Of a stretch of 64,000 nt of DNA, positions 62,300 through 64,000 are shown one piece after another. This stretch comes from Mycobacterium sp. (GTDB taxonomy: Bacteria > Actinomycetota > Actinomycetes > Mycobacteriales > Mycobacteriaceae), in NCBI RefSeq assembly GCF_029961025.1, contig NZ_JASBVP010000007.1, positions 310,001 through 374,000 of the forward strand, written 5' to 3'. Under the pieces are notes generated by a model, which worked only from the letters and a program-made list of their open reading frames with translations, did no database searches and had not been told where the DNA came from. Every line of letters begins with the position of its first letter. The first letter of the stretch is position 1. A program made the translations under genes and the position numbers.

Positions 62300-62317
62300 G
62301 TTACGGTACCGTAGGTT
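62300..62317. promoter_or_regulatory. Candidate repressor operator upstream of desaturase reductase gene
   Basis: GTTACG-GTAC-CGTAGGTT is an imperfect dyad about 67 bp before the reductase ATG. Its half sites GTTACG and CGTAGGT, with a 4-bp spacer, are identical to those of the second overlapping site in front of desA3. Shared operators at the two genes of one enzyme system argue for joint control, probably by a TetR-type acyl-CoA-responsive repressor, which is not encoded in the window. Confidence 0.6.
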
Positions 62318-62383
62318 CGTCGAGGATGGTTGACTTCCGGGCCCATCGCAAGGAGCTTTGTCACGAACACGTTTCCCAGGAAC

Positions 62384-63541
62384 ATGAAAACGACCAAGGT
62401 GACTGCCAAGGTTACCGCCAACCTCGTCGACACCAAGCCGCCCACCGTCGTCGGCGCGGACCGCCATCCGGGATGGAACGTGCTGCGCAAGCTCGGCACC
62501 CGCATCACCACCCCGCTGTTGCCCGACGACTACCTGCATTTGCTCAATCCGCTATGGTCGGCGCGGGAGTTGCGGGGCCGCGTGCTGGAAGTCCGCCGCG
62601 AGACAGCCGATTCTGCAACTCTGGTCATCAAACCGGGATGGGGTTTTAGCTTCGACTACCAGCCGGGCCAGTACATCGGGATCGGCCTGCTGGTGGACGG
62701 GCGCTGGTGGTGGCGGTCGTATTCGCTGACGTCGAGTCCGGTGACCGCCGGTGCCCGCCGGCGATCGCGCACCGTGACCATCACGGTCAAAGCGATGCCG
62801 GAAGGGTTTCTGTCGGCGCATCTGGTGGGTGGGGTTGAACCCGGCACGATCGTGCGTCTGGCCGCCCCGCAGGGCAATTTCGTGCTGCCCGATCCGGCGC
62901 CGCCGGCGATCCTGTTCATCACCGCGGGATCCGGGATCACGCCGGTGATGTCGATGCTGCGGACGTTGGTGCGCCGTAACCAGATCACCGACATCGCGCA
63001 CCTGCACTCGGTGCCTACCGCGGCGGATGTCATGTTTGCCGACGAACTGGGCGAACTGGCTCGCAGCCACCCCGGTTACCGGTTGCGGATCCGCACCACC
63101 CGCACCGAGGGCCGACTCGACCTTGCCCGGCTGTCCGACGAGGTGCCCGATTGGTCCGAACGCCAGACCTGGGCCTGCGGGCCGGAGGGCATGCTGCACC
63201 GGGCCGAGCAGGTCTGGTCGTCGGCGGGAATCGCCGAACGGCTCCACGTGGAGCGGTTTGCGGTGTCGCGGGCGGCCCCGGCCGGGGTGGGCGGCACGGT
63301 CACCTTTGCGCAAAGCGGCAAGAGCACGGCCGCCGATGCCGCGACGTCGCTGATGGACGCCGGTGAGCGGGCCGGTGTGCAGATGCCGTTCGGCTGCCGG
63401 ATGGGTATCTGCCAGTCGTGCGTGGTTTCGCTGCTGGAGGGCCACGTGCGTGATCTGCGGACCGGTGTCGAACACGAGCCCGGCACCCGGATTCAGACCT
63501 GCGTCTCGGCCGCATCCGGCGATTGCGTGCTCGACATCTAA
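62384..63541 (+). CDS. Stearoyl-CoA desaturase electron-transfer reductase (Rv3230c type)
   Basis: A 385-residue NADPH oxidoreductase that passes electrons to DesA3 for delta-9 desaturation of stearoyl-CoA. The FAD site [11 protein letters not shown] is near residue 110, the NAD(P)H loop [15 protein letters not shown] near 180, and a C-terminal plant-type [2Fe-2S] ferredoxin domain has CRMGICQSC and a final Cys in [19 protein letters not shown] 62384 is chosen; TTG 62330 is an alternative. A candidate operator lies upstream. desA3 follows after 77 bp with its own operator. Confidence 0.93.
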
Positions 63542-63554
63542 CGATTACTCCCTG

Positions 63555-63590
63555 GTAACCTACGCTTTCGTAGGTTACGATAGCGTAGGT
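63555..63590. promoter_or_regulatory. Double operator in desA3 promoter
   Basis: GTAACCTACG-CTTT-CGTAGGTTAC is a perfect inverted repeat with 10-bp arms and a 4-bp spacer (63555-63578). Its right arm is shared with a second site, GTTACG-ATAG-CGTAGGT, ending at 63590. The pair lies 29-64 bp before the desA3 ATG, where a promoter core is expected, so a bound protein would block transcription. The half sites recur in front of the reductase gene. Confidence 0.75.
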
Positions 63591-63618
63591 CAGTGACTAC
63601 CGACCCGGAAGGCGACAG

Positions 63619-64000
63619 ATGGCGATCACCGATGTGGACGAATACACGCGCCTGACCGACGCCGACATCGACAGCCTGGCCGCCGAGCTGGACGCGATCC
63701 GCCGCGACATCGAAGATTCCCGGGGCCAACGCGACGCCCGCTACATTCGCCGTACCATCGCCGCGCAGCGTGCGCTGGAGGTGACCGGGCGGGTGTTGTT
63801 GACCGCCGGCTCGCGGCGGCTGGCGTGGTGGGCGGGCGCCGTCACCCTGGGCGTGGCCAAGATCATCGAGAACATGGAGATCGGCCACAACGTCATGCAC
63901 GGCCAGTGGGACTGGATGAACGACCCGGAGATTCACTCCTCGACCTGGGAGTGGGACAACCTCGGGGCATCCAAGCACTGGCGCTACAGCCATAACTTCG
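63619..64000 (+). CDS. desA3: Stearoyl-CoA delta-9 desaturase DesA3 (3' end outside window)
   Basis: The first 127 residues of a membrane di-iron desaturase that makes oleoyl-CoA from stearoyl-CoA. The N-terminal region (AAELDAIRRDIEDSRGQRDARYIRRTI) leads to a hydrophobic segment and the first histidine box GHNVMHGQ near residue 95; HWRYSHNF at the window edge begins the second box. ATG 63619 follows GGAAGG. Its reductase partner is immediately upstream. M. tuberculosis DesA3 is about 427 residues, so most of the gene lies outside. Confidence 0.94.
   Translation, partial: MAITDVDEYTRLTDADIDSLAAELDAIRRDIEDSRGQRDARYIRRTIAAQRALEVTGRVLLTAGSRRLAWWAGAVTLGVAKIIENMEIGHNVMHGQWDWMNDPEIHSSTWEWDNLGASKHWRYSHNF

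Follow-up and report, generated by a model that had tools for sequence, protein, structure and literature searches.

A 15-bp-spaced TAC-N6-GTA operator array before the mycobacterial desA3 and its reductase gene, with an Rv1019-type TetR protein as the probable cognate regulator

Through oleate synthesis, the desaturase DesA3 and its reductase contribute to mycobacterial growth and membrane lipids. A conserved motif, termed "X" and consisting of TAC and GTA around a 6-bp spacer, was described in 2012 with its regulator left unnamed; it was tied to palmitate-induced genes, with two sites upstream of Rv3230c and three each upstream of Rv3229c, where they are evenly spaced, and of Rv2524c (fas) (PMC3388012). 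According to the title of a 2022 FEBS J. article, the TetR protein Rv1019 negatively regulates Rv3230c-Rv3229c (doi 10.1111/febs.16647, cited in PMC9861118). Two further TetR regulators are relevant here. FasR (Rv3208) is acyl-CoA-responsive, activates fas-acpS through three inverted repeats, is released by acyl-CoA from C16 upwards, and was co-crystallized with a DNA (TACCCGTACGTAGAACTCGCCAGTA) that includes TAC-N6-GTA (PMC7382501). MadR (Rv0472c) represses desA1 and desA2, and is released by saturated acyl-CoA (PMC8872791).

The window analysed here (64,000 nucleotides of a Mycobacterium sp. genome) ends inside desA3, and the features at issue are collected in Table 1. A pattern search of the window found TAC-N6-GTA three times in the gap upstream of desA3, in steps of exactly 15 bp; this gap measures 77 bp from the end of the reductase gene, and core 1 starts 5 bases past the reductase stop codon. 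The repeat unit before desA3 is TAC-N6-GTA in three copies. The preliminary description of this DNA had reported a perfect palindrome with its arms around CTTT, together with an overlapping second site. Both are present, and the two arms are exact (GTAACCTACG at 63555-63564, CGTAGGTTAC at 63569-63578), but the sites are three in number, core 1 having been overlooked. The 24-bp palindrome is made of two 10-bp arms and a 4-bp spacer that is itself non-palindromic, and the outer bases of the second dyad are asymmetric, with 3 mismatches to ACCTACG-N4-CGTAGGT.

Table 1. Coordinates of the reductase-desA3 locus and its putative regulatory elements (window positions).
Feature	Position	Strand	Remarks
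Rv3230c-type reductase gene, electron donor of DesA3	62330..63541	+	FAD-binding, NAD-binding and 2Fe-2S domains (Pfam); start codon uncertain
Operator core before reductase	62302..62313	.	TACGGTACCGTA; includes -10-like TACGGT, its final T shared by 77/77 relatives
Operator core 1	63546..63557	.	TACTCCCTGGTA; exact TAC-N6-GTA, 15 bp upstream of core 2; TAC and GTA kept in 76/76 aligned mycobacterial loci
Operator core 2	63561..63572	.	TACGCTTTCGTA; with its flanks forms the 24-bp palindrome 63555-63578
Operator core 3	63576..63587	.	TACGATAGCGTA; promoter-proximal; equals the second dyad TACG-ATAG-CGTA
Probable -10 hexamer of desA3	63576..63581	+	TACGAT; within core 3; its sixth base is T in all 76 loci aligned
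desA3, acyl-CoA desaturase, gene start	63619..64000	+	FA_desaturase PF00487, E 4.5e-33 (Pfam); continues past window end

The motif is not new, having been published in 2012: the core, the genes (Rv3229c and Rv3230c) and the three evenly spaced sites before desA3 are identical to those of motif X, the difference being that two reductase sites were described there and one of them is lost in the present genome (PMC3388012). The present analysis adds the exact 15-bp period, the TACGNT of the proximal site, the distribution across the family and the genomic association with Rv1019. The half sites had also been said to recur at the reductase gene, as they do in TACGGTACCGTA, the single intact TAC-N6-GTA core of that promoter in the present genome; 71 of the 78 mycobacterial loci have the exact pair. 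The missing second core is a lineage loss of one copy and no reason to reject the motif family. Between 62280 and 62300 of the window, the upstream reductase operator is eroded both here and in Mycobacterium sp. SM1 (L005), and it is kept in most mycobacteria.

Conservation was evaluated on 78 mycobacterial loci retrieved with the reductase, aligned positions being counted in 76 of them for desA3 and in 77 for the reductase. The preliminary description had tied its reading to the motif not being absent from other mycobacterial desA3 promoters; absent it is not, since a perfect triple precedes desA3 in 75/78 loci. In the wider family, the exact array occurs in 141 of 151 genomes (274 copies vs. 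55 for the reversed pattern). On the evidence of the sequences, we regard the array as a genuine and strongly conserved regulatory element.

A clue to its mode of action is found in the hexamer TACGNT, which is invariant only within the promoter-proximal core. Its sixth base is T at every aligned locus, both in core 3 of desA3 (76/76) and in the proximal core of the reductase (77/77), vs. just 7/76 at the equivalent position of desA3 core 2. Since this T is not demanded by the symmetry of the operator, a -10 hexamer (TANNNT) lying inside it is the likely reason, and repression by occlusion would follow from the invariance of TACGNT in the promoter-proximal core. A scan with the sigma-70 consensus found no promoter at desA3; such scans commonly fail for mycobacterial promoters. 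The repressor binding over the promoter that had been put forward earlier thus gains a conserved array with TACGNT inside its proximal site, and the array very probably mediates repression at desA3. The cooperativity that was part of the same proposal is plausible, as judged from the fixed period.

Within the 3.74-Mb genome, desA3 is the sole site of the exact pattern TAC-N6-GTA-N3-TAC-N6-GTA (two overlapping matches; none for the reversed-pattern control). Permitting one mismatch yields one extra array match genome-wide, upstream of a gene for a FadE5-like acyl-CoA dehydrogenase (one match for the control). The shorter pattern TACG-N4-CGTA is found 9 times genome-wide vs. 25 for its control, and four of the nine matches fall in the promoters of desA3 (two), the reductase and the fadE5-like gene. 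At the latter (G000:C27:56084-56110; ~4084-4110 of L098), a TACGGTTGCGTA core accompanies the one-mismatch array. The product of this gene matches PDB 6kpt (E 3e-214), and the gene is likely a further member of the regulon. Furthermore, the fas promoter of the present genome carries TACTCGCGCGTAGAACTCGTCAGTA, related to the desA3 core. The earlier idea of one control for electron donor and desaturase holds as far as both genes have the array in common; the motif reaches wider here, to the fadE5-like gene and, as a related sequence, to fas.

Two TetR genes of this genome deserve consideration as the source of the regulator: an orthologue of FasR (C25:392889-393569) and one of Rv1019 (C25:496712-497302, divergent from glmU). 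These paralogues share 35% identity, and their recognition helices are nearly identical; among solved structures, that of FasR comes closest to the Rv1019 orthologue, and almost every genome of the genus has both genes. Judged by the title of the 2022 article (doi 10.1111/febs.16647), Rv1019 has the very same target gene pair, a repression that suits sites over the -10, and an orthologue present here; the difference is that the motif is missing from the promoter of Rv1019 itself. The TAC-N6-GTA core was found in 0/30 Rv1019 promoters (up to 200 bp upstream), which argues for no autoregulation of Rv1019 through it and counts against Rv1019 as the cognate protein. TetR regulators need not all use the same site for their own gene.

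Genomes lacking one or the other paralogue allow both candidates to be compared. The array is missing from 6 of the 9 genomes without Rv1019 and from 4 of the 142 genomes with it, a raw contrast among the 151 genomes that is inflated by kinship and by the absence of desA3 from five of the array-less genomes. Given this confounding, the case has to be made from the few genomes in which the gene pair is retained. Three of them (G067 and G096 of one genus, G088 of another) possess desA3, the reductase and FasR but yielded no Rv1019 match at E 1e-30, and the 14-15 kb around their gene pair contained no array even with two mismatches allowed. Another three (G092, G112 and G128) have Rv1019 and no FasR, and carry the array before reductase-desA3. 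The seemingly array-less G065, G130 and G145 contain Rv1019, and a slightly worn triple before desA3. Among the gene-pair genomes read, the array is therefore seen in 0/3 without Rv1019 and in 7/7 with it (three of these slightly worn), in a small and partly kin sample. Because the gene-pair genomes without Rv1019 are few and come from two genera, this observed co-occurrence rests on about two losses. G074, 66% complete, shows the array with neither regulator found, and was set aside. In the FasR-less genus, Rv1019 was found to adjoin mfd in all three of the genomes inspected, and in one of them glmU flanks it on the opposite side, so that orthology is supported by position. Array retention at the gene pair does not follow FasR, as the array is kept in FasR-less G092, G112 and G128 and absent in FasR-bearing G067, G096 and G088; at the level of gene content, this shows FasR to be neither required nor sufficient for it.

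The single exact arrays of G067 and G096 were considered as counter-examples and discarded, being located elsewhere, without the inner CG, and not at desA3 or the reductase. A different 15-bp array (TACTCGCCAGTAAGTTAC...GTAAC, no inner CG; ~1501-1527 of L233 and L234) stands before a gene for an oxidoreductase-like membrane protein in both Rv1019-less genomes of one genus, and is probably read by another regulator.

Our preferred reading, to which we assign a probability of roughly 60% from the sequence evidence, is that three TetR operator sites span the desA3 promoter, that the reductase promoter has a two-site counterpart (one site intact in this genome), and that the Rv1019 orthologue is the cognate protein. 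Binding, repression at the desA3 promoter and the effector are what we infer, as follows. TetR-family dimers are predicted to occupy the TAC-N6-GTA cores at intervals of 15 bp (~1.4 helical turns), which would place adjacent dimers on roughly opposite faces of the DNA. The proximal core would hold the -10 hexamer, with the other cores extending back over the -35 region, and the occupied cores would block RNA polymerase at both genes. An Rv1019-type TetR dimer, paralogous to FasR, is the most probable cognate protein. A saturated long-chain acyl-CoA would probably release the repressor, so that desaturase and electron donor would be produced upon the build-up of saturated chains; stearoyl- or oleoyl-CoA had been named earlier as candidate effectors. 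The regulator-less motif of 2012 would thereby receive a specific candidate in Rv1019, with the genomes lacking one or other paralogue arguing against FasR.

A wider version would make Rv1019 the master repressor of acyl-CoA desaturation throughout the lineage, acting through a fixed-15-bp array and having diverged from FasR into desaturation vs. synthesis on nearly the same half site; it is considerably more tentative, and we lean against it. The FasR-less genus has a like array also before fas (L177) and before an accD-type carboxylase gene (L178 and L179, by inspection), as though control of these genes had passed to the Rv1019 side. The repressor cg2737 of C. glutamicum, likewise named FasR, targets fas and accD1.

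FasR itself (the Rv3208 orthologue) might read the array, activating fas from its known sites and repressing desA3 and the reductase over the -10, with its release by long-chain acyl-CoA lowering synthesis and raising desaturation. It had been the first-choice regulator for the likeness to its co-crystal DNA, until genome co-occurrence turned against it. The likeness is partial: the FasR operator of fas-acpS shares TAC-N6-GTA, GTTAC half sites and several consecutive repeats with the present array (PMC7382501), and the fas promoter in this genome has its related TACTCGCGCGTAGAACTCGTCAGTA. Moreover, GTTAC half sites are common to 30/30 fas promoters read, most of them with TAC-N6-GTA, and fas and desA3 were listed under one motif (PMC3388012). 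These fas promoters, like the near-identical recognition helices, favor FasR, and from the former it follows that the half sites recognized by the two paralogues are probably similar. However, FasR is an activator at fas, where spacing and arms are others (PMC7382501): the fas array advances in steps of 15 and 13 bp and has no GTAGG arms. Furthermore, the genomic co-occurrence of the desA3 array does not track FasR, as G092, G112 and G128 retain it at reductase-desA3 without FasR, and G067, G096 and G088 have FasR, no Rv1019 and no array at the gene pair. All in all, we hold FasR as the reader of the array to be unlikely. The FasR operator at the fas promoter of the present genome (GTTAC...GTTACCCGTGCGTAGAACTCRCCAGTAACC; ~6991-7035 of L096, G000:C5) is common to the genus, its steps being 15 + 13 and not 15 + 15.

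A dual control, in which Rv1019 would be the main repressor and FasR a second input on the same array, would suit the similar half sites and recognition helices as well as the presence of both genes in almost every genome of the genus; nothing specific speaks against it, as the double dissociation only makes FasR neither needed nor enough, and we rate it slightly below control by FasR. Binding of the array by MadR is highly improbable and largely refuted: its theme of an acyl-CoA-responsive TetR repressor of desaturase genes, released by saturated acyl-CoA, is alike, but its targets and operator are others (PMC8872791), its consensus TCTGTG-N7-GT was not found on either strand of the intergenic sequence (63540-63620), and desA3 (MSMEG_1886) showed no rise upon madR deletion.

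The surroundings of the candidate Rv1019 gene in the present genome (L097 and L099; G000:C25, ~490001-506000) comprise glmU-prsA-rplY-pth and the divergent Rv1019 orthologue, ~7 kb from mfd, with a fadD-like gene adjoining mfd. In M. tuberculosis, mfd directly follows Rv1019. The gap between Rv1019 and glmU of the present genome also harbors GC-rich tandem repeats (CGGCTTCTCGCCGGCCCGCGACGGGCCGGCATCGTCGCCG..., ~7380-7560 of L099).
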